Below, piece by piece: positions 21,949 through 60,792 of a stretch of DNA of 64,000 nt; position 1 is the first letter of the stretch, and each line of letters begins with the position of its first letter. Position numbers and translations under genes: made by a program. The DNA lies in the NCBI RefSeq assembly GCF_005886345.1, contig NZ_PNEC01000013.1, positions 62,001 to 126,000 on the forward strand. Direction: 5' to 3'. The notes below the pieces were generated by a model. It was not told the DNA's origin. It saw only the letters and a list, made by a program, of their open reading frames with translations, and searched no databases. The stretch is from Pseudoalteromonas phenolica. Its GTDB lineage: Bacteria; Pseudomonadota; Gammaproteobacteria; Enterobacterales; Alteromonadaceae.

Positions 21949-22397
21949 GTTGTGTCAAATCCTATTTGATATCTAAAAGCAGCCACAAACTATACCTGCT
22001 AGAAATAAATGAACAAGTTAATTTAACTGATATAAACAACTATTTAACTTAAAAGTTAGTGTAGATCAGTAATATCAATCTCTATACTGATTGAATTTAA
22101 AACACCTTCTCTGAAATCAAGTAAGAAGGGTTAAATTAGCGTCTCTATTTTTAGTTAGTAAAAATATGTTCTAGTTATCATATTTGACTATCAAACAGGC
22201 CGATTAATTCAATCTAAAAGCCAATAATTTATAAAAATATATAGCAAAATCTAGCATTATCCACATCAAACCTAGCTGTTCGGACCTAAATACAATACAA
22301 ACTAAAACAGGTTGTTTCGGTTAGACAAATACTGATCCAGTAAATAATGCTCAGCCTTGTAAAGCCCCTTTACAAAATGACAGGGTAATAAAACAGG
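21949..22397. other. Intergenic region with one 19-bp palindrome
   Basis: About 450 bases of AT-rich sequence between two reverse-strand genes. Apart from the palindrome at 22357-22375 I see no repeat, RNA structure or small ORF with a convincing ribosome binding site. It must contain the promoter of the acetyltransferase gene. Confidence 0.4.
22357..22375. repeat. 19-bp palindrome copy (candidate parS)
   Basis: TTGTAAAGCCCCTTTACAA. The eight-base arms TTGTAAAG/CTTTACAA are perfect around a three-base centre. It is the exact reverse complement of the copy at 31664 and sits 22 bases past the 3' end of the methyltransferase gene. There is no loop or T tract, so it is not a terminator. Confidence 0.7.
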
Positions 22398-43179: not shown

Positions 43180-44142
43180 TTAATTGTAAGTCGCTAGCAG
43201 CTTTTGTAATTGCTCTAAGCGTTTGTCGGTAATGACCTGATTATTAATTTTAATTGTTATGTCGCCACTTTTATTACTTCTTTGCAAATCAATAAATTCA
43301 TTGCTAAACAGAGACTCGTTTCGGCGGACAGGCTGCTCAAAGTTAATCAGGAACTGAGTAATTTTAATTGCACGTTTCTCATCACTCATTTCTTCAGACA
43401 TAAAAGATTGGTTTCGTAAATCTTCTAACAGCAAGAAAAACATATCCTGATCTTTTTTAATTGCGTCAATTAATTTCTTTGCAGCCTCACGACCTAAGTG
43501 ATTTGGTGTAGGGTAGTGTTGTAAAACTTTTAAAGGAATTTGTTCAAAAGCTTTTAATGAATCTGCTATTGCTGTGTGAGATACCCCTTCAAGCTCCGCG
43601 ATCTCTCTGTAAGAGCCTTTCTTGCCTTGAGCAATAAGTTCTTGCTTAGTATCAGCATAAGCTTGTCCAAGCTCCCACAGGCTAGGCGCAATATATTGAT
43701 CGGAAGAAACCGCTAACAGTTTTGCATCTTCATCAGTAAAATCAGGGGAAGAAAGTACAACATAATCAGCATCAGCAAGTAAACAGGCCTTACGGCGTCT
43801 AGAACCAGATAAAACCCATTGAATATCGCCTTTTGACCAGCACAATGCAGGATGGAGATTACGTTGGTCGTTTTTAATTGCAGGCAGAATGTCAGCAACT
43901 GACTTTTGTGAAAGCAAACTTTGTTCACGGCGATTTTGTCCTAATACTCGCGTTTGAGATTCAATATCGCTATGTTTGATCACCTGACACGTCAAAGTGA
44001 TCATTCTATTTGGATCACTTGGTGCCGGCATCGTTAATACTTCACCAACTGAAGCTTGTTCTAGTAACTCATCTAAACTACTGGTACTTACAGGCGAAGC
44101 AAATGGGTCTAAGCGAGTGTCGTTTTTACGTTTTTTAGCCAT
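43180..44142 (-). CDS. parB: Chromid partition protein ParB
   Basis: A 320-residue ParB/Spo0J-type centromere-binding protein. The N-terminal conserved block reads ENRREQSLLSQKSVADILPAIKND-like with NLHPALCWSKGDIQWVLSGSRRRKACLLADADY (the CTP-binding/Arg-rich region), then a helix-turn-helix around KGSYREIAELEGVSHTAIADSLKAFEQIP. It is plasmid-like rather than a main-chromosome ParB. It lies ten bases downstream of parA in an operon read away from the origin. Its DNA target is probably a repeated palindrome; the 19-bp repeats at 18.6-36.1 kb are candidates (inference). Confidence 0.93.
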   Translation of the reverse strand: MAKKRKNDTRLDPFASPVSTSSLDELLEQASVGEVLTMPAPSDPNRMITLTCQVIKHSDIESQTRVLGQNRREQSLLSQKSVADILPAIKNDQRNLHPALCWSKGDIQWVLSGSRRRKACLLADADYVVLSSPDFTDEDAKLLAVSSDQYIAPSLWELGQAYADTKQELIAQGKKGSYREIAELEGVSHTAIADSLKAFEQIPLKVLQHYPTPNHLGREAAKKLIDAIKKDQDMFFLLLEDLRNQSFMSEEMSDEKRAIKITQFLINFEQPVRRNESLFSNEFIDLQRSNKSGDITIKINNQVITDKRLEQLQKLLATYN

Positions 44143-44152
44143 GTAAAACCTA

Positions 44153-45391
44153 TTAAACTTGTTGTTCTAGAGAGGATTGGGTTGAAACCCAGTTTGAACG
44201 GATCAGCATTTCAAGTTCATCAACAACATCTTTGATATTTTCTTGGGATTTGATCAAAGATTCACGACTAGCAAGGCTATCAGATGTTTTTTGATCAAAG
44301 ATCGTGTTAAAAGATGAGGAGCTTGCTGTAATAGCAGAGCTATGATTAATCGGATAACTCATAACCTGACGGCCAAAAGCACTTCGAACATCTTTGACGA
44401 TATCACGTTGAGAATGATTGCCTTTGACATAGTTGGTAACTAAAAACTGCATGAAATCCCAACCTTCATGGCCTAAAGCCGCAACTGTATGATAAATCTC
44501 ACCTAAACGTTTTAAATATTTATTATTAGCATCGAAGTCAACGGCTTCTGGATGAACAGGAATAAGCATCGCTGTTGAAGCCATTAATGCGTTATAAAAC
44601 ATAAAGTTTAGAGAAGGAGCTGTATCAATGAGGATTATATCGAACTGATCTTCTACGGGCTTTATCACTTTTTCTAGCAGTTTGTGATAGTGACGTGTTT
44701 GCTCATAACTAGAGGATTCTTTTAATTCAGTTGCTGTTTCATGTTCAAAATAAAAATCATCCATCCCTGATGGTAAAAGTCGAATATTGGGTATATGTGT
44801 CGATTGAAAAGCTTCACTAACAACGTCCGACCAAACTTCACCTTCATCTAATTCAATACAATCACGCATGAGATCACCAACAGTGATCGGTTCTGGATCT
44901 TGAGAAGGAAAGAAACTAGAAGAGGAACCTTGAGGATCGAGGTCAATGATACCGATGCGATAACGCTTTATATTTGTTGTTGCCAATGCAGCTGCAATAT
45001 TTACTAAAGATGTTGTCTTGCCACATCCACCTTTTAAAGAGTTGATGACAATGACTTGAAGTTTATCGCTGTCTTTTCGCTGATCATGAGGAATTCCCAT
45101 AATTCCAGCCATTGCAAAAATATTAGATAATGTATAAGCATAATGTCCGTTAGCTCCTTTTTGAATGTTTAATTTATCAAAGTCACCTTGGTCATGTCTG
45201 CGTTTTAATGTTCTATTATTGCAACCAAGTAAATCAGCTGCAGCTTTCTGTGTGTATGTGCGGAGCTCTTTTTCATCGCTTTTTAAATGAGCACGATAAT
45301 GTTGGATCCGGCCTTCTAAAGACTGTTCAGCAACTTCGGCTGTAGCTTTTAAAAGTTTATAAGTTGTTAGTGCGCGAGTATTAATTGACAT
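44153..45391 (-). CDS. parA: Chromid partition ATPase ParA
   Basis: A 412-residue ParA of the large type with an N-terminal helix-turn-helix domain (AAADLLGCNNRTLKRRHDQGDF, residues ~50-71), as in P1/F and vibrio chromosome 2 ParA, so it should also repress its own operon. The deviant Walker A KGGCGKTT is at residues 120-127, with Walker A' in IIDLDPQGSSSS and Walker B in ILIDTAPSL. The ATG at 45391 has an AAGGAT ribosome binding site; in-frame starts upstream to 45454 lack one. It faces away from the origin, as is usual for chromid parAB. Confidence 0.96.
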   Translation of the reverse strand: MSINTRALTTYKLLKATAEVAEQSLEGRIQHYRAHLKSDEKELRTYTQKAAADLLGCNNRTLKRRHDQGDFDKLNIQKGANGHYAYTLSNIFAMAGIMGIPHDQRKDSDKLQVIVINSLKGGCGKTTSLVNIAAALATTNIKRYRIGIIDLDPQGSSSSFFPSQDPEPITVGDLMRDCIELDEGEVWSDVVSEAFQSTHIPNIRLLPSGMDDFYFEHETATELKESSSYEQTRHYHKLLEKVIKPVEDQFDIILIDTAPSLNFMFYNALMASTAMLIPVHPEAVDFDANNKYLKRLGEIYHTVAALGHEGWDFMQFLVTNYVKGNHSQRDIVKDVRSAFGRQVMSYPINHSSAITASSSSFNTIFDQKTSDSLASRESLIKSQENIKDVVDELEMLIRSNWVSTQSSLEQQV

Positions 45392-45640
45392 ACATAATAT
45401 CCTTAACATTATGCTAAATATTATAATGTCTATAACTTTAATAGTAAACAGCAAAAAAAGAAGACATTTGTAAACTTACTACTTCTTAAGAATAAATAAG
45501 AGGATTAAGTATGGTTAAAGTATAAGGTAATTAAGGTTAGTGAAGTGAAATAATTTAATAAACTATTGATTTTTAATAATAATGGTAAAAAAGTCAGATC
45601 ACATTCTAACGAAGTAAAGATCTGATCTTTATTAACTTAC

Positions 45641-45660
45641 AGATCTAAATTTTACTAACT
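45641..45660 (-). repeat. RepA iteron copy 1
   Basis: On the reverse strand AGTTAGTAAAATTTAGATCT: the consensus is AGTTAGTAAAAnnnTGATCT. Confidence 0.65.
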
Positions 45661-45678
45661 AATATATCAAAATTTAAC

Positions 45679-45687
45679 TTATGCACA
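45679..45687 (+). other. DnaA box-like site TTATGCACA
   Basis: TTATGCACA, one base from the TTATCCACA consensus, in the origin region. Confidence 0.65.
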
Positions 45688-45722
45688 ACTTGTGAACAAA
45701 GTTACGAACAGAAATGCATTAG

Positions 45723-45739
45723 AGATCAGATTTTTACTA
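45723..45739 (-). repeat. RepA iteron copy 2 (degenerate)
   Basis: On the + strand AGATCAGATTTTTACTAA, which is the reverse of TTAGTAAAAnnnTGATCT. Confidence 0.5.
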
Positions 45740-45754
45740 AGATATTTCAGTAAG

Positions 45755-45763
45755 TTATACACG
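45755..45763 (+). other. DnaA box-like site TTATACACG
   Basis: TTATACACG, two bases from the consensus, followed at once by a GATC. Confidence 0.5.
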
Positions 45764-45790
45764 GATCTTTTATATCTATATTGTAATAAG

Positions 45791-45837
45791 TTAATAAAGA
45801 TCTGATCTGTTCTTAGTACAGATCAGATCTTTATTAA
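45791..45837. repeat. 19-bp perfect inverted repeat inside the origin
   Basis: Arms TTAATAAAGATCTGATCTG and its exact complement, separated by nine bases. Each arm has two GATC sites. Part of the arm (AAGATCTGATCTTTATTAA) recurs at 45617-45635. This is a candidate RepA-dimer operator or copy-control element. Confidence 0.88.
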
Positions 45838-45849
45838 TTAAGAAAAGAG

Positions 45850-45858
45850 TTATACACA
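45850..45858 (+). other. DnaA box-like site TTATACACA
   Basis: TTATACACA, one base from consensus; the best of the three in this region. Confidence 0.7.
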
Positions 45859-45915
45859 GCAAATAACAACAAGGTTTGACTTAAAACCATTAAAATATAT
45901 GACAAACCGGGAATG

Positions 45916-46000
45916 AGTTAGTAAAATTTTGATTTATAGAATTAGTTAGTAAAAATATGATCTCAATAAAAATCATCTTCAGATCACTTTTTTACTAACT
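45916..46000. repeat. RepA iteron copies 3-5
   Basis: Two direct copies (45916-45933 AGTTAGTAAAATTTTGAT; 45944-45963 AGTTAGTAAAAATATGATCT) and one inverted copy (45981-46000 AGATCACTTTTTTACTAACT). They sit immediately upstream of repA and are likely both initiator-binding and autoregulatory sites. Confidence 0.78.
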
Positions 46001-46066
46001 TTAATTATTAACTTTTGCTGTGGAATATGTTGTTATAGCATGTCGTCGAAATTTGGAAGTAAAACA

Positions 46067-47281
46067 ATGAGCCGAAAGGTGAACATCTCAGTTGATAATC
46101 TACCTGATTCATTACGTGGGCAAATTCATGGAGTAGAAAGTGCAACCGATAATGAAAATTTAGCACTATTTACTGATAATAAAGATGTTCGTATCACACT
46201 TGACAGTGCTGCACATGAACTTCGAGCATATTCTAATACATTTAACCATTATGATCTTTGGGGTCGCTTTGTCCGCTCTGGTCATAAAAAATTACCATTA
46301 GAAGAAGCCCCGAAAAAAACAATAATAACGCGACGTATATCTGAAAAAGTTGATGGTATTCTTTATGAAGGTGAAATAAAAATTACACCTGCAGTAGTGA
46401 GCACTAAGTTAGAAGGTGAAGAAGTTGAATGTTTAGTTTGGCCATCTGATCGTGAAGAAAAAGTTGAAAGAGCATTAATTCGACTGGCGTCAAAAGGGAA
46501 AATTGTAAAAATTAATTTTAAGTCCGGTATTCAATATGCTGTAATATTTTCTATGAACGAATTGGCGCAGGAGTTAAAAGCTGTTGGTCAATCTATGCCT
46601 TACCCTCAAATAAAAGAATCTTTAGAAGCACTTCAAGGTTCTAAACTATCGTTTAAATATTCAGCGACGGATACTAAAAATACAGATATTGATGATTCTT
46701 TCTACGAATCAAATATGAATTTTCTTTCTTCATTACATTTTAGTGGCAAAAAAGGCCAGGGTGGTAATGTCAAATGTGTCGCTTGTTTGAACGCATTTGT
46801 TCATAACATGATCGATAATCTAGAATATAAAGGTTATTACTTCAACAGAGCACAAGAATTAAAACGGGGTTTATCTCGTTGGATGATGCTTCGTTTGTAT
46901 CATCTATGGCGATATGCTGCACCAGGTAAAACTTACCACTTCAGATTACTCTCAATCATGGAAAAATATGGTTCTATTTACTCAACTGATGAGATAACAG
47001 AGAATAAACTGAAAGCTTTACGTCGAGATATGACTACGACAATGAAGGATTTGATAGAAAAAGGTGCTATTTCTGAATACGATATAACCAATGTGAAAGA
47101 TGATAAAACTGGAAAAATCATCGATTACGTCTATGAGATGCATCCTTCTGAAGAATTTTGTGATGAAATTCTTACTTTAAATAAGCAAAACAAGAGAATC
47201 GAAATTCAGGGTGGAAAACGATTAGTCGAAGCTGTTGAAGTTATTGATGAAGATGTACTTGAAGAGATTGTAAAAGAGTAA
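46067..47281 (+). CDS. repA: Plasmid-like replication initiator RepA of the chromid
   Basis: A replication initiator of about 404 residues, rich in charged residues, in the position expected of RepA: directly after the iterons and divergent from parA. Blocks such as TFNHYDLWGRFVRSGHKKLP, KGYYFNRAQELKRGLSRWMMLRLYHLWRYA and SIMEKYGSIYSTDEITENKLKALRRDMTTTMKDLIEKGAI look like the winged-helix pair of plasmid Rep proteins. It is not RctB, the vibrio chromosome 2 initiator. The ATG at 46067 has a GGAAG ribosome binding site; an ATG at 46040 would add nine residues but lacks one. Its stop codon is inside a hairpin shared with the convergent tus gene. Confidence 0.88.
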   Translation: MSRKVNISVDNLPDSLRGQIHGVESATDNENLALFTDNKDVRITLDSAAHELRAYSNTFNHYDLWGRFVRSGHKKLPLEEAPKKTIITRRISEKVDGILYEGEIKITPAVVSTKLEGEEVECLVWPSDREEKVERALIRLASKGKIVKINFKSGIQYAVIFSMNELAQELKAVGQSMPYPQIKESLEALQGSKLSFKYSATDTKNTDIDDSFYESNMNFLSSLHFSGKKGQGGNVKCVACLNAFVHNMIDNLEYKGYYFNRAQELKRGLSRWMMLRLYHLWRYAAPGKTYHFRLLSIMEKYGSIYSTDEITENKLKALRRDMTTTMKDLIEKGAISEYDITNVKDDKTGKIIDYVYEMHPSEEFCDEILTLNKQNKRIEIQGGKRLVEAVEVIDEDVLEEIVKE

Positions 47282-47304
47282 ATTTTGAATTTACTCTTTT
47301 TTTT
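47272..47304. terminator. Bidirectional terminator formed by the ends of repA and tus
   Basis: Perfect 13-base stem AAAAGAGTAAATT/AATTTACTCTTTT with a three-base loop, followed by T. Both stop codons lie inside the hairpin, so the last codons of both genes double as terminator. Confidence 0.88.
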
Positions 47305-48160
47305 CTAGATAAATTCTATCGACTAGAAAGTTATACTCCCGCTTTCTTGGGTCACTCACACTTGCATCATAGTCAGGAAGACTACCGACCTTTAATTTCT
47401 TGCTAGGATTTAACATAATAAAAGGTAGTGCACCACTTACATGGTACCTATTGGTCGCAGTAAAACGAATATTTACTTCTGGGGTTACTCTAGTTGGTCT
47501 TCTTATTCTTAATTTTGAATCTGACTGTAAACTTTGGACTCGAAGTTTTTCAGTTTCGACAGCCTTTAACCATGAATCTTGATCTATTGCTCGTGGGTTA
47601 GAATACTTAGAAGAACGATCGAGCATTTCTAAAGCTGCATCTTTAGTCAAAGTTTTCGTTGCATGCTTTTTCATCCAAGAGAATCGGACTGAAAAAGGTG
47701 AGTCTGATTCGCAGTGAATTTTCCGGTATGCAGCTAAAGTAATTAAGTTTGGAACAGCAGAGTGAACTGCTTCAAAACGAGCATCATTATTCGGAATACT
47801 AAGAATTAACTCTTTAAACTTTGACTTTTCGATGTTGATTGAATTTATTCTATTTTGCAAATGTTTAAATTTATCTTCTACTAACACAATGCCTGGGTGC
47901 CTAGCTAAAACTTTGCCACTTTTACCTGACTCTAAAAATAAATCATTAAATGAAAATATAATCTTTTTTAAAGCCTCATCACCCGTTATTTCATTTACAA
48001 TAATCTTATCTGGAGCAGTATGTTCTTGCTCTTTATCATAAGCTGGAAGAGAATAATAATTAGCTGAAATAATAGTGGCTGATTCAAGTTCTTTAGAGAA
48101 GAGCTCTAAATGATTTAGCAGCAAATCAAATTGTGCTTTGATAAGAAAATTGATATTCAT
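47291..48160 (-). CDS. tus: Replication terminator protein Tus
   Basis: A 289-residue homologue of E. coli Tus, which binds Ter sites and blocks the replicative helicase from one side only. It aligns along nearly its whole length: YSLPAYDKEQEH matches E. coli FSLPEVKKEDEH, with Glu46-His47 corresponding to Glu49-His50. Also matching are RHPGIVLVEDKFKHLQNRI, DARFEAVHSAVPNLITLAAYR with Phe129/His133 (E. coli Phe140/His144, the pocket that locks the flipped cytosine), VRFSWMKKHATKTL, and KLRIRRPTRVTPEV, matching KLKIKRPVKVQP. It is convergent with repA. A Ter-like site covers its own promoter, as in E. coli. Confidence 0.95.
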   Translation of the reverse strand: MNINFLIKAQFDLLLNHLELFSKELESATIISANYYSLPAYDKEQEHTAPDKIIVNEITGDEALKKIIFSFNDLFLESGKSGKVLARHPGIVLVEDKFKHLQNRINSINIEKSKFKELILSIPNNDARFEAVHSAVPNLITLAAYRKIHCESDSPFSVRFSWMKKHATKTLTKDAALEMLDRSSKYSNPRAIDQDSWLKAVETEKLRVQSLQSDSKLRIRRPTRVTPEVNIRFTATNRYHVSGALPFIMLNPSKKLKVGSLPDYDASVSDPRKREYNFLVDRIYLEKKE

Positions 48161-55781: not shown

Positions 55782-58700
55782 ATGATTGCTCAAATTTCTC
55801 AACAAGATAACGCAAATGAATTAATCAATAGCTATATAGATAAGCTTAAAAGTTCAGGTTTTACTGGTGATCTTGATACCAGTTATGCAACACGTATTGT
55901 TAATTCAACTGATAACAGTATTTATCAAGAAGTCCCTCAAGCTGTCGTTTTTCCTAAATCAAATAAAGATATACAAATAGCACTTCAAACAGCCAACCAA
56001 GATCCATTTTTGTCTTTAACATTTGGACCAAGAGGTGGAGGCACAGGCACTAATGGGCAATCACTTACACCCGGCATTATTCTAGATTTATCACGACATA
56101 TGCGTGAAATTATAGAAATAAATGAGGAAGAAAAATGGGTCAAAGTTCAAGCAGGTGTGATTAAAGATCAGTTAAATGATTTTTTAAGACCCTATGGATA
56201 TTTCTTCGCTCCAGATTTATCAACGAGTAATAGAGCGACAATAGGCGGCATGATAAATACCGATGCTTCTGGCCAAGGTTCGTTAGTATATGGTAAAACC
56301 AGTGATCATGTTTTAGGCTTAAAATCATACTTGGTAGATGGCACCGAATTAAACACAAGTAAAATTACTAAAGAACAAGCTGAGTTATTAGCAGAACAAC
56401 AAGCAAGTACGTCATCTGTATATAAGCAAGTACTAACTTCTTGCGAAAATAACAGAGAATTAATTCTACAGAAATTCCCAAGACTCAATCGTTTTTTAAC
56501 TGGTTACGATTTAGAAAATGTTTTCAATAACGATTTATCTACATTTGATTTATCAAGAGTAATAACTGGAAGTGAGGGCTCACTTGCGGTAGTTACAGAA
56601 GCAAAACTTAATATTACACCTATTGCACCATTTAAAACTTTAATAAATATAAAATATGATAGTTTTGATTCTGCACTTCGTAATTCACCATTTTTAGTTG
56701 ATGCAGAAGCAACATCAGTAGAAACCGTAGATAGTAAAGTTCTTAATCTAGCAAAAGAAGATATTATCTGGCATTCAGTTTCAGACCTTATTCAAGATGT
56801 ACCTAACAAAGAAATGTTGGGTTTAAACATGGTTGAATTCAATGGAGAAACCGAAAATGAAATGGATGACAAAATTAAAAATCTTTGTGACAAACTTGAC
56901 GCACTTATCGAAAATAAACAAGCGGGTGTTATCGGTTATCAACTAACAAATGACAAATCTGAAATTCTTAAAATTTATGCTATGCGTAAAAAAGCTGTTG
57001 GTTTACTTGGTAATACAAAAGGAAAACAAAAGCCTCTCGCTTTCGCTGAAGATACAGCCGTTCCACCTGAAAATTTAGCAGACTTCATCTCGGAATTTAG
57101 ATCATTGCTTGATAGCCATAATCTTCATTATGGAATGTTCGGTCATGTTGATGCAGGTGTATTACATGTTAGGCCAGCACTCGATATGTGTGATCCTGAG
57201 CAAGAAAAGCTACTTAGAAAAATCTCTGATCAAGTCGTATCACTTACAGCTAAATATAATGGTTTGATGTGGGGCGAGCATGGTAAGGGCTATCGCAGTG
57301 AATATGGTCCTGAATTTTTTGGTGAAAAACTTTTTAACGAACTTAGAAAAATAAAAGCAGTTTTCGATAAAAATAATAGACTAAACCCTGGAAAAATTTG
57401 CACGCCAATAGAAAGTAAAAACTCACTTGTTTCAGTTGATGGACAAAAAAGAAGTTGGTTTGATCGCAAAATAGATGTCACTGTTAAAGACAGTTTTGAA
57501 AATGCGATGAATTGTAATGGTAATGGACTGTGTTTTAATTATGATGATGACACACCAATGTGTCCATCTTATAAAGTTACCAAAGATAGACGACATTCAC
57601 CAAAAGGGCGAGCATCATTATTTAGAGAGTGGTTAAGAATTCAAGAAGAGCAGGGCGTTAATCTACTCGAAGTTGAAAAACAGTTAATTAATAAAGAAAA
57701 TGATACTACCTGGTGGGAAAGGTACCGAAACTCTGGTTCGAATAATTATGACTTTAACCATGAAGTCAAAGAAGCGATGGATGAATGCTTGGCTTGTAAA
57801 GCATGTTCTTCAGCATGCCCAATTAAAGTAGATGTTCCTACATTTAGATCACGATTCTTAAATTTCTATCACAGTATTTATTTACGACCAGCTAAAGATT
57901 TGCTCGTAGGAAATGTTGAAGCAACTGCGCCACTTATGGCTAAATTTCCTAGGCTAAATAATTTTATTGTAAACAATTTCCCTGGAAAACAATTCATTAA
58001 TAATATAATTGGCTACGTAGATACACCTAACTTGAGTGTACCTACAATATCTGAACGCATAAAAACGAAAAACAAATTTGATTTCGAAAAAGTTAATTTA
58101 CTTTCTGAATCTGAAAAAAATAATTCAGTTTTAATCGTACAAGATCCGTTTACTAGTTTCTATGAAGCAGAACTTGTTGCAGCAACGATTAAACTTATCG
58201 AAGCATTAGGAAAAAACGTTTTTGTTCTGCCGTTTGTTCCAAATGGCAAACCTCAACACGTTAAAGGTTTTCTTAAAGAATTTAAAACGACTGCAAAAAA
58301 TTCAAGCCAGTTTCTGAATCAAGTTGCAGAATTAAACATTCCTATGATTGGTTTAGATGCGTCTTTAGTAATGGTATATAGAGACGAATATAAAACAATT
58401 TTAAACTCTGAAGATAGAGGTCGTTTTGAAGTTAAACTTGCACATGAGTTGTTCGAATCATTTGATTTTAGCGGGCTAAAAATAAACAGTAAAAATAGCT
58501 TTACTTTATTGTCACACTGTACAGAAACAACAGCAATGCCGTCAGCATCAAAAATTTGGAAAAATATTTTTTCTCAGATAGGTTTGGAATTAAACACACC
58601 TACAACTGGTTGTTGTGGTATGGCGGGCACATATGGACATGAAAAGCAAAATTATGAAAAGTCTAAGTTATTGTATGAATCTTCTTGGAAAAAGAAGATA

Positions 58701-58817
58701 GAAAATGAACAAATAGAGACTATTTTGTCGACCGGTTTTTCATGCCGCTCACAAGTTAAACGATTTGAAGGTAAAAAGCCACTTCATCCAATTGAATTTA
58801 TTGCTTCTAAACTTTAA
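55782..58817 (+). CDS. ydiJ: FAD/Fe-S D-2-hydroxyacid dehydrogenase, YdiJ-like
   Basis: A 1011-residue protein aligning with E. coli YdiJ from its first residues (MIAQISQQ... versus MIPQISQ...; TDNSIYQEVPQAVVFP). An N-terminal FAD-binding PCMH domain (FGPRGGGTGTNGQSLTPG, then GGMINTDASGQGSL) and a FAD-oxidase C-terminal domain are followed by a ferredoxin-like Fe-S module (CLACKACSSACPIKVD) and a cysteine-rich domain ending TTGCCGMAGTYGHE. YdiJ has been reported as a D-2-hydroxyglutarate dehydrogenase feeding electrons to the membrane. The ATG at 55782 is chosen over the GTG at 55770 by this alignment. Confidence 0.92.
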   Translation: MIAQISQQDNANELINSYIDKLKSSGFTGDLDTSYATRIVNSTDNSIYQEVPQAVVFPKSNKDIQIALQTANQDPFLSLTFGPRGGGTGTNGQSLTPGIILDLSRHMREIIEINEEEKWVKVQAGVIKDQLNDFLRPYGYFFAPDLSTSNRATIGGMINTDASGQGSLVYGKTSDHVLGLKSYLVDGTELNTSKITKEQAELLAEQQASTSSVYKQVLTSCENNRELILQKFPRLNRFLTGYDLENVFNNDLSTFDLSRVITGSEGSLAVVTEAKLNITPIAPFKTLINIKYDSFDSALRNSPFLVDAEATSVETVDSKVLNLAKEDIIWHSVSDLIQDVPNKEMLGLNMVEFNGETENEMDDKIKNLCDKLDALIENKQAGVIGYQLTNDKSEILKIYAMRKKAVGLLGNTKGKQKPLAFAEDTAVPPENLADFISEFRSLLDSHNLHYGMFGHVDAGVLHVRPALDMCDPEQEKLLRKISDQVVSLTAKYNGLMWGEHGKGYRSEYGPEFFGEKLFNELRKIKAVFDKNNRLNPGKICTPIESKNSLVSVDGQKRSWFDRKIDVTVKDSFENAMNCNGNGLCFNYDDDTPMCPSYKVTKDRRHSPKGRASLFREWLRIQEEQGVNLLEVEKQLINKENDTTWWERYRNSGSNNYDFNHEVKEAMDECLACKACSSACPIKVDVPTFRSRFLNFYHSIYLRPAKDLLVGNVEATAPLMAKFPRLNNFIVNNFPGKQFINNIIGYVDTPNLSVPTISERIKTKNKFDFEKVNLLSESEKNNSVLIVQDPFTSFYEAELVAATIKLIEALGKNVFVLPFVPNGKPQHVKGFLKEFKTTAKNSSQFLNQVAELNIPMIGLDASLVMVYRDEYKTILNSEDRGRFEVKLAHELFESFDFSGLKINSKNSFTLLSHCTETTAMPSASKIWKNIFSQIGLELNTPTTGCCGMAGTYGHEKQNYEKSKLLYESSWKKKIENEQIETILSTGFSCRSQVKRFEGKKPLHPIEFIASKL

Positions 58818-58830
58818 GTATATGAACAAT

Positions 58831-58852
58831 GTGGTTGATTTATTTCAACCAC
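58831..58852 (+). terminator. Weak terminator-like hairpin after ydiJ
   Basis: Stem GTGGTTGA/TCAACCAC with a six-base loop; the T tract is poor. Confidence 0.5.
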
Positions 58853-58882
58853 TTTAAATTTAACATAATTAAATATTAGCTA

Positions 58883-60094
58883 TTACAAAGTTCGCTTAGA
58901 ACCTGACTTGGCACGATCTGACACATTTGTTTGAATATAAATTTGGTCAGTAGTGGCAATTTTTGAATGCCCAAGATCTTCAGATAAATGTTTCAGTGGT
59001 CGATGTTTTGCATCATGCGTTGCACCAGTATGGCGAAGCCAATGAGATGTAGCTGCTTTAAGTTGCTCTGATTCATCATCGAATCCATCTTTGTCCAATT
59101 TTTCGATTGCAAGATCAAAACTTTCTTGAACAATTCTCCTGATCTGCCTGACATTCATACCACCTTGGCCGCGTAATTTATGAAGGATAGGGGATGGATC
59201 ATCTGCACGAGGTAAAGCTTCGAATCCTCTATGAATACGGTATCTTTTTAAATACTCTAAAAATTCTTCGCTCAGAGTGACATCTCTTAGTTTGTTACCT
59301 TTACCCATTACACGCAAAAACCAATAATTATCTGAATCTTGCCAAAAATGACTCATAACTGGTGACCATTGAGGCCTGTCTGATAATTCTGAAATTCTAA
59401 GATATAAACCTTTCAAACAAGCTAAGGTGAATAAATTCCTTTCAAATTTCGGCTCTTTTTCACATTTATCTTTTGTAACACCGAAGACATATTCCCATTG
59501 AAGATCACTTAAAGTATCAGGTATATTGATTTGAGATTGCACAACTAAATATGGAGAATTTTTTTTCACTACAGGCACATAGTTAAAAGCTGATTTTTCT
59601 TCTAATTGTGCAAATTTATAAAATACATTTAGCGCAGTAAACATGGCTGCAAGCGTTTGTTGACTGACACCATTTTCTTTTTCTATAAAAGGACGCCATT
59701 TTTCATTAATGTATTTTACGCCGTCTTTGTCTTTAAACCGCCATTGTACAGAATTTGTTGACCAAGCTTTTTCAGGTTTTACCATGAAATCAACGTAGGC
59801 CTCTATGTCTTCGCGCTTTAAATTGAAAACTGATGATTTTGTAAAATACCAAGACCATAGATAGAGTCGTTCAATTTCATTTCGAAAACGATTAAATGTG
59901 GCTTCAGATTTTCTTCCGTAAACATATAAAAACTTTAATAAAAATTCATAATCTGAAATTATAAAATCATGTTTAGAGTTTAACGCTGTAATTTTAGATT
60001 CTAACTGTGGATATTCAGTTTTAAGAGTAGCATCTTCAACATGCGCAATCATATATCTTAATTGCTTAACAGTATCAACTAACGGGAAAATCAT
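58883..60094 (-). CDS. Tyrosine recombinase (integrase)
   Basis: A 403-residue site-specific recombinase. The C-terminal catalytic set can be read: first Arg in LYLRISELSDR, Lys in VMGKGNKLRDV, HxxR in SHWLRHTGATH, His in LGHSKIATTDQ and the Tyr nucleophile in QIYIQTN. The N-terminal ~170 residues form the SAM-like core-binding domain with an extra ~60-residue extension. It is not XerC/XerD by length. With the DUF4240 gene it separates ydiJ from asd, and together they may be a small insertion. I saw no att repeats, though the search was by eye. Confidence 0.88.
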   Translation of the reverse strand: MIFPLVDTVKQLRYMIAHVEDATLKTEYPQLESKITALNSKHDFIISDYEFLLKFLYVYGRKSEATFNRFRNEIERLYLWSWYFTKSSVFNLKREDIEAYVDFMVKPEKAWSTNSVQWRFKDKDGVKYINEKWRPFIEKENGVSQQTLAAMFTALNVFYKFAQLEEKSAFNYVPVVKKNSPYLVVQSQINIPDTLSDLQWEYVFGVTKDKCEKEPKFERNLFTLACLKGLYLRISELSDRPQWSPVMSHFWQDSDNYWFLRVMGKGNKLRDVTLSEEFLEYLKRYRIHRGFEALPRADDPSPILHKLRGQGGMNVRQIRRIVQESFDLAIEKLDKDGFDDESEQLKAATSHWLRHTGATHDAKHRPLKHLSEDLGHSKIATTDQIYIQTNVSDRAKSGSKRTL

Positions 60095-60285
60095 TTTAAG
60101 TCCGATATTGGTTAGTATTGGACATAGTTTAGAGATTTAGAGAGGCTATGTAAACTAAAGTTTTTAACCCAAAGTGCTCTTAAATATATAAACATTATAA
60201 TTTAACATAACGTAAATTATAAGAAATTAACTATAGTTGAGTTAAATGGTAAAATTTGTCTTCACTTACTAGTTGGCCTATAAAA

Positions 60286-60792
60286 ATGAATGAACAAACC
60301 TTTTGGGAAATTTTAGAAAAAGTAAATCAATCTCCAGAGGAACCAAATGAATCACTGAAATCCACTTTAGCTAAATTAACAAGCAATGATATCGAAGTTT
60401 TTGATGCAATTTATACAGAAAAGCTTAAGAAACTTTGGCATTGGGATTATTGGGCAGTCGCATTTATTATATGTGGTTGTAATACAGAATATGATTTTTT
60501 GGATTTTTGTAATTGGTGTTTAGTACAAGGAAAAGAATTTAATATAAAACTTACTAGTAAACCTGATGACCTGTTCGATTATAATTACCCAATAAAAGAC
60601 AGTTTACCTTACCCATATATTGATGAATTTGATTTGGTACCTGGTTTATTATTTGAAGATTTAACTGGTAAAGAACTCCCATATCATCAAGTAGTTAACT
60701 TTCAACCTAAGGGAAAAAGGTTTAAAAACAAACCTAAATCCCTTAAAGAGTGCTATCCGAATTTATTTAATAAATTTTGGAAAAAGAATTAA
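60286..60792 (+). CDS. DUF4240 protein
   Basis: A 168-residue acidic/aromatic protein. The N-terminal pattern [16 protein letters not shown] and [33 protein letters not shown] match the DUF4240 fold, often found in toxin-immunity and accessory regions. The ATG at 60286 is favoured over a start ten codons earlier because it gives this family N-terminus. Its last codon overlaps the end of convergent asd by four bases. Low G+C and an adjacent integrase suggest horizontal gain. Confidence 0.75.

Follow-up and report, generated by a model that had tools for sequence, protein, structure and literature searches.

The stretch of DNA analysed here (the window, 64,000 nucleotides in length) is part of contig C35 in a Pseudoalteromonas assembly of 4.57 Mb, and its positions 45597-46000 correspond to ori2, the origin of the Pseudoalteromonas chromid. 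The parAB genes are found on one side of this stretch and repA on the other, with tus located beyond repA. ParB (43180-44142, minus strand) is a ParB/SopB-like protein (NF010252, E 1.7e-24, below the curated cut-off), while parA (44153-45391, minus strand) encodes a ParA ATPase involved in partition (PF13614, E 6e-28). The chromid initiator gene, repA (46040-47281, plus strand; 413 aa), was assigned from its open reading frame, its genus-wide homologues and the predicted fold of its product; an alternative start at 46067 is possible, since the match of many relatives begins there. The tus gene (47291-48160, minus strand) encodes a replication terminus site-binding protein (PF05472, E 2e-74).

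The region between parA and repA carries nine RepA iterons, identified with a matrix at a score of at least 14. Iteron 1 (45595-45617, plus; GATC at 45597) is weak, scoring 17.6, and is overlapped by iteron 2 (45607-45629, minus, 22.8; GATC at 45619 and 45624). These are followed by iteron 3 (45640-45662, plus, 25.0; GATC at 45642), iteron 4 (45722-45744, plus, 27.2; GATC at 45724), iteron 5 (45787-45809, minus, 26.5; GATC at 45799 and 45804), iteron 6 (45819-45841, plus, 22.5; GATC at 45821 and 45826), iteron 7 (45914-45936, minus, 19.8), iteron 8 (45942-45964, minus, 26.8; GATC at 45959) and iteron 9 (45980-46002, plus, 27.7; GATC at 45982), the last of which is shortly upstream of repA and could possibly act as an autorepression site. 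Iterons 5 and 6 form the left and right arms of a 19-bp perfect inverted repeat (45791-45809 and 45819-45837, with a 9-bp spacer), which therefore consists of two iterons face to face; a repeat search also reports it (45791-45837) as a 23-nt pair with 96% identity. Three DnaA boxes, all on the plus strand, are interspersed with the iterons: TTATGCACA (45679-45687), TTATACACG (45755-45763), which has one mismatch, and TTATACACA (45850-45858), the consensus being TTATNCACA. At least one TTWTNCACA is present in 86 of 88 non-redundant ori2 regions. The iterons, the DnaA boxes and the perfect inverted repeat had all been described in a reading made from the sequence alone (the sequence-only reading), and all are present.

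Sites from across the genus served to train the matrix, with eight of those in the window among its seeds. When the whole window was scanned, the nine ori2 iterons were accompanied by a single further site, at 22151, and Markov shuffles of the window yielded 0.15 matches per 64 kb. The lone site (22151-22173, minus strand, score 19.5) has GAAC in the place of GATC. Classification of the replicon as R1-type (RepFIIA) was considered and rejected, in view of the nine iterons; R1-type origins are not known to have such repeats.

The same sequence-only reading had pointed to twelve GATC sites within about 400 bases, most of them inside repeats, and this count is exact: 12 GATC occur in 404 bp, where 2000 first-order Markov shuffles give a mean of 1.24 and a maximum of 6, and a 404-bp window moved across the 64 kb reaches its highest value, 12, at ori2. 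Eleven of the twelve lie within iterons, the exception being that at 45764, and not every iteron carries the tetramer, because iteron 7 reads AATC.

The embedding of GATC in initiator sites is conserved throughout the genus. The iteron consensus is NAGATCANNTTTTTACTAASTNA, from a matrix of 786 sites in 88 non-redundant ori2 regions out of the 105 used (loci L003 and L068 were left out), and its GATC columns are occupied by the respective bases in 96, 99, 98 and 100% of sites. The full matrix recovers 1154 sites in 106 ori2 regions, 1102 of them with GATC. As a control for circularity, sites were also scored by the non-GATC columns only; GATC was then found in 856/943, 670/744 and 463/528 ori2 sites at three thresholds (88-91%), which bears out the conservation of GATC positions on which the sequence-only reading had made its proposal depend. 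The 460 bp that precede repA hold 8-15 GATC at 105 of 107 chromid loci, the exceptions being L003 (6 in 310 bp, at a contig end) and L068 (4). GATC is enriched outside the iterons as well, 3.2-fold in ori2 (93 observed versus 28.9 expected) and 4.2-fold at the chromosomal site described below (207 versus 49.0), while 15 other palindromic tetramers outside the ori2 iterons range from 0.31 to 1.46-fold. Part of this enrichment may stem from degenerate iterons that fall below the threshold.

Both proteins of a methylation-based control are encoded by the host. Dam (TIGR00571) and SeqA (PF03925) were each detected in all 108 Pseudoalteromonas genomes, the genes of the genome studied here being at G000:C1:117223-118017 and C89:69938-70261, respectively; the earlier proposal had also hinged on the presence of a dam methylase. 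In one genome (G067), two genes with strong matches to the Dam family are separated by 23 kb (C1:361857-362654 and 385391-386194). The over-representation of GATC at ori2, together with Dam and SeqA, is what is expected of an origin controlled by these two proteins, and in V. cholerae all RctB 11/12-mers have been reported to contain GATC and to require full methylation for binding (PMC2865523). GATC could, however, be kept solely because RepA contacts these four bases, Dam and SeqA playing no special role at ori2. As protein contact predicts, the GATC half is the one shared with sister plasmids whose iterons otherwise differ, and certain iterons do without GATC altogether. The enrichment of GATC, and of none of the 15 other tetramers (0.3-1.5), outside the iterons is not foreseen by such a reading, nor are the universality of Dam and SeqA across the genus and the lack of GATC in the sites of remote relatives, and we thus regard a contact-only role as doubtful.

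RepA itself was found in 107 of the 108 genomes, and the protein encoded in the window is identical to RepA of P. phenolica S3663 (L140). Experiments in P. spongiae and P. tunicata have established RepA as the initiator, and repA together with ori2 constitutes a minimal replicon (PMC7858055). Xie et al. (2021) did not find relatives of RepA outside Pseudoalteromonas (PMC7858055); among 1266 plasmid records, it matches the RepA of IncC plasmids (27% identity over 91% of RepA, E 1e-26) and the Rep of Pseudomonas IncP-2-like megaplasmids (26%, E 5e-21). On these sequence grounds RepA is a member of an IncC-related RepA family, while the Pfam and NCBIfam collections returned no family match at E 1. 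RctB chains are absent among its sequence matches in the PDB. A PDB sequence match to plectin (E 6e-4) was dismissed as spurious, given that the fold predicted for RepA is that of replication initiators.

This fold was predicted with AlphaFold2 from 19 sequences, and its pLDDT of 72.7 and pTM of 0.72 indicate moderate confidence in the model. Its best structural match in the PDB is to domains 2-3 of RctB (5tbf; E 1.1e-7, TM 0.38/0.52), with an alignment of 252 residues (Z score 14.1, 5.3 A) and a sequence identity of approximately 10%; further matches include pi (Z 9.7) and RepE (Z 9.0). The model would thus place RepA in the same initiator class as RctB, despite the approximately 10% identity. 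The description of RepA as an unrelated plasmid-type initiator is not supported in that form, since it has a remote relative in IncC RepA and RctB provides the closest match to its predicted fold among solved structures.

The origin of the GATC half-site can be traced through plasmids of the same genus, nine of which were read and whose RepA proteins are about 45-52% identical to that of the chromid. A scan with the chromid matrix recovered next to no iterons in these plasmids, because the left half, which alone is common to both, does not suffice; iterons were therefore read by eye and counted by their right halves. They open with the cAGATCR half of the chromid iteron, followed by a right half that is specific to each group: CCTCTATG in L108 (GATC in 9/11 sites), CCTATATG in L109 and L112 (8/9 and 11/12), ACACGTTATT in L110 and L208 (12/13 and 11/12), ACCCGA in L114 (6/12) and ACACCATTT in L127-L129. 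For the latter three the counts by right half (7/19, 6/24 and 7/22) are uninformative, since the pattern is too loose for 15-17 kb, and the list of clustered iterons is the better evidence. In L115-L117 the region upstream of rep is without GATC iterons; the iterons of these loci are located upstream of parA. One of the contigs mentioned, L208 (DIAJ01000008.1), is labelled as Flavobacteriales, carries a Pseudoalteromonas-type plasmid rep with GATC iterons 43 bp apart, and is probably misbinned. A further sequence, L219 (IMGVR_UViG_2885280279), from a viral collection, is a plasmid or phage-plasmid whose Rep is 29-31% identical to RepA and whose repeats resemble those of L118.

In a tree, chromid and plasmid RepAs are sister groups; the placement of the IncC outgroup involves long branches, which were flagged by the program. 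The remote relatives have iterons without GATC (0/7 in IncC, 0/10 in IncP-2-like plasmids and 0/13 in L138, from another family of the order), and in the IncC and IncP-2-like Pseudomonas megaplasmid cases these are positioned after rep. Some chromids harbour a second, more remote rep, with GATC in part of the repeats (L120-L122); it is 28% identical to RepA, shares a contig with ori2 in G060 (L120) and G014 (L121), at a distance of approximately 70-140 kb, and is also present in G070 (L122). The repeats of L119 have no GATC. Since the GATC half-site is common to the sister plasmids, it must either predate chromid formation or be independent of it, and the simplest reading of these sequences is that it arose in the plasmid lineage ancestral to the chromid, the other half of the iteron having perhaps diverged for incompatibility. 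The suggestion that GATC iterons were an independent solution of the chromid therefore needs to be divided: the sister plasmids share the half-site, so it does not belong to the chromid in particular, but it remains plausible that the sites arose independently of those in Vibrio, because the iterons of IncC, IncP-2-like and the G372 relative are without GATC. The fact that these half-sites were already in place suggests that they could ready a plasmid origin for life as a chromosome.

The iteron motif also occurs away from the chromid. Thirty complete or near-complete Pseudoalteromonas genomes were searched with a strict motif, RGATCNNNWYTWTACTAA, which gave 12-19 matches per genome in 29 of them and a single match in G003, compared with 0-1 per genome for a reversed-pattern control; in 21 genomes of other genera it gave two matches in total. 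Among the matches listed (11 genomes, one of them partly), 16 are on the main chromosome, 15 of these at a single place, and blastn shows synteny across all 11 loci. This place is located after fba (PF01116, E 3e-94) and before a response regulator gene that, being followed by PhoR (PF11808), is identified as phoB. A query spanning the site matches all 108 genomes, and the array was read in 70 of these. Every one of the 70 has 3-8 iterons after fba, adding up to 388 sites, 387 of which contain GATC (259/282 when scored without the GATC columns), and every one displays the same inverted layout, with plus-strand sites followed by minus-strand sites. In 52 genomes the iterons are flanked by fba and phoB, the stretch having ended before phoB in the other 18. 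Spacing between sites on the same strand peaks at 30-32 bp, with further values of 21, 41, 52, 61-62 and 83 bp that correspond approximately to steps of the helical turn. Shuffled 900-bp sequences contain 0.003 matches each, with three matches in none of 700 shuffles, and 3 of the 70 genomes have one match within the final 450 bp of fba. The genome of the window carries five iterons at this site (L237). As expected of a crtS-like element, this is a conserved site on the main chromosome that bears the motif of the initiator. The exceptional G003, a single-contig 3.6-Mb genome without RepA, keeps five iterons after fba; its chromid is absent from the assembly or was recently lost.

An IHF-like element, WATCAANNNNTTR, is found between the two iteron groups of the array, for example in L220 and L223. 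Of 54 array cores compared with an IHF consensus, 21 of 54 contain it exactly (null, 0.9%) and 44 of 54 with at most one mismatch (null, 20%), and its distances to the iteron groups differ by approximately one helical turn. It was kept outside the main claim because it is absent from the species of the window and from its two close relatives.

Pseudoalteromonas is a main example, after Vibrio, of a two-replicon genus whose replicons finish together: chromosome and chromid terminate in synchrony, and most chromids replicate one-way (PMC7858055). A crtS-like site was sought by Xie et al. (2021) and not found (PMC7858055), and, in the open-licence PubMed Central papers searched, neither GATC iterons nor the fba site were seen described for Pseudoalteromonas. 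In the 30 complete genomes the array is 435-925 kb from dnaA. With replication mode assigned from the published size range (two-way at 1.60-1.67 Mb; chromids of at least 1.6 Mb were taken as two-way), the path left to the chromosomal fork exceeds that needed by the chromid, giving a slack for a synchronous finish of 65-449 kb in 29 of the 30 genomes, with a mean of 244 kb over all 30, and acceptable slack could be reached from about 24% of a replichore; in Vibrio, a delay between crtS and the timing of chromosome 2 is known (PMC5854411). The one negative value, -206 kb, belongs to G060, whose second RepA, in conjunction with its aberrant timing, indicates that this chromid may be a fusion. Chromid travel is tracked by chromosome half-length (r 0.89) but not by the distance of the array from dnaA (r 0.15), and the position of the array follows that predicted only weakly (r 0.30, p 0.11; 0.53 without G060), values that are not corrected for shared ancestry. 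The correlation between site-to-terminus distance and chromid travel (r 0.84) was discarded as proof of a trigger, because chromosome half-length alone gives 0.89. The position of the array fits a trigger, and position by itself does not discriminate between trigger and titration. A search for dif with a typed consensus in 31 genomes gave one weak match.

Arrays also exist on the chromids themselves. The chromid of the window has 20 iterons (score of at least 14) within 11 kb at C35:48799-60025, that is, 48-59 kb from ori2 and 13.2 to 2.0 kb to the left of the first base of the window, and comparable arrays are found on other chromids; these arrays are likely titration sites. GC skew has negative values to the left of ori2, turns positive between 46 and 58 kb and is negative again further on, a pattern that suggests a long fork moving leftward through parAB and the array and a terminus near 58-60 kb. 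With such a fork, duplication of the chromid array would follow initiation closely, which is the behaviour to be expected of a titration site. The minus strand has a dif-like sequence (three mismatches; 0.04 expected) at 60200-60225, and the terminus is possibly approximately 14 kb from ori2, at 58000-60300 of the window, in agreement with the published 4-27 kb.

The main rival to a triggering role for the fba array is that the fba array and the satellite arrays of the chromid could all be datA-like sites that titrate RepA, damping initiation instead of provoking it. The array iterons are plain copies of the ori2 iteron and should compete for RepA, arrays such as the 20-iteron cluster are at hand on several chromids, and V. 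cholerae is reported to have a locus that titrates RctB (PMC6090056). Simple titration, however, would not call for the strict order of plus-strand before minus-strand sites that all 70 genomes keep at a single chromosomal location, and the arrays on the chromids would already suffice for it, which leads us to view titration by the fba array as unlikely. RepA-type initiators often repress at inverted sites, and since the array is upstream of phoB, RepA could instead use it to regulate transcription of phoB (or fba), in a manner unrelated to replication timing. This we hold to be improbable: in the median layout the array is near the 3' end of fba and not at the phoB promoter, several genomes have extra sequence before phoB, and the end of fba and the start of phoB are up to 3.5 kb apart. 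Lastly, the motif is identical to that of ori2, as it would be if the array were the remnant of a plasmid origin that had integrated, but the absence of a rep gene beside the array at the locus read (L229), a layout with one inversion point where ori2 has mixed orientations, and retention in 70 of 70 genomes make this origin of the array very improbable.

The reading that we favour joins a GATC-iteron ori2, control by Dam and SeqA, and firing triggered by the array, and we give the explanation as a whole a probability of roughly 0.55. It builds on the iterons, the conserved GATC, the dam and seqA genes, the predicted RepA fold and the conserved chromosomal array; from these we infer the binding of RepA to the motifs, its dependence on methylation, sequestration by SeqA and triggering by the array. 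RepA, with its predicted RctB/RepE/pi fold, would bind about nine iterons whose left half is a Dam site, loading when these are fully methylated, and DnaA would assist in the opening of an AT-rich region. After firing, SeqA would hold the hemimethylated sites, and ori2 would rest until Dam restored methylation, while the chromid arrays would buffer RepA. Passage of the chromosomal fork would duplicate and hemimethylate the fba array, so that bound RepA would be changed or released and ori2 would fire, a timing that could allow both replicons to finish together. That the genus possesses an interchromosomal clock of its own, in which the fba array, hemimethylated by the passing fork, licenses RepA at the chromid origin, is a more tentative proposal, to which we grant slightly less than even odds. 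If it is true, the array would be an analogue of crtS with a different sequence, layout and chemistry, serving one-way and two-way chromids alike, and the building block of the clock would be a methylation-tagged half-site that a plasmid family had passed on. The identification of further 'timers' is named as a goal in a 2026 survey (PMC13342612), and the fba array, a defined and deletable locus, may be the cue by which chromid replication is timed, a part played in Vibrio by crtS.

Of the systems that have been characterized, Vibrio chromosome 2, with RctB, ori2 and crtS, offers the most extensive parallels: GATC within the initiator sites, Dam and SeqA in the host, a DnaA box, parAB beside the origin, synchrony of termination, an initiator whose fold appears from the model to be the same, and, some hundreds of kb from ori1, a main-chromosome site linked to the initiator, crtS being reported at about 800 kbp from ori1 in V. 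cholerae (PMC5854411). By contrast, the Pseudoalteromonas RepA returns no family match in Pfam or NCBIfam and is related in sequence to IncC RepA; its iterons are of approximately 20 bp and in mixed orientation, in contrast to the six tandem 12-mers of Vibrio ori2; on the main chromosome, ordinary GATC iterons form its inverted array after fba; and most of the chromids are unidirectional (PMC7858055). In addition, RctB has been described as binding crtS independently of methylation (PMC11711613), and the Vibrio analogy is therefore imperfect. The RctB chromid of Plesiomonas shigelloides also has GATC in iteron-like repeats, for which its authors consider control by Dam to be probable (PMC8826520); it differs in its RctB-like initiator, and the portion of that report consulted makes no mention of an array on the main chromosome (PMC8826520). 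IncC (IncA/C) and IncP-2-like Rep proteins share homology over about 90% of RepA and have iteron origins, but their iterons are without GATC and placed after rep. The Pseudoalteromonas plasmids, with 45-52% identity in RepA, form the sister clade and share the cAGATCR half of the iteron, whereas the right half varies by group and they have no known role for the main chromosome. The Pseudoalteromonas system most likely works in the manner of Vibrio ori2 and crtS, and by the sequence of its initiator it belongs to the IncC-related RepA family.
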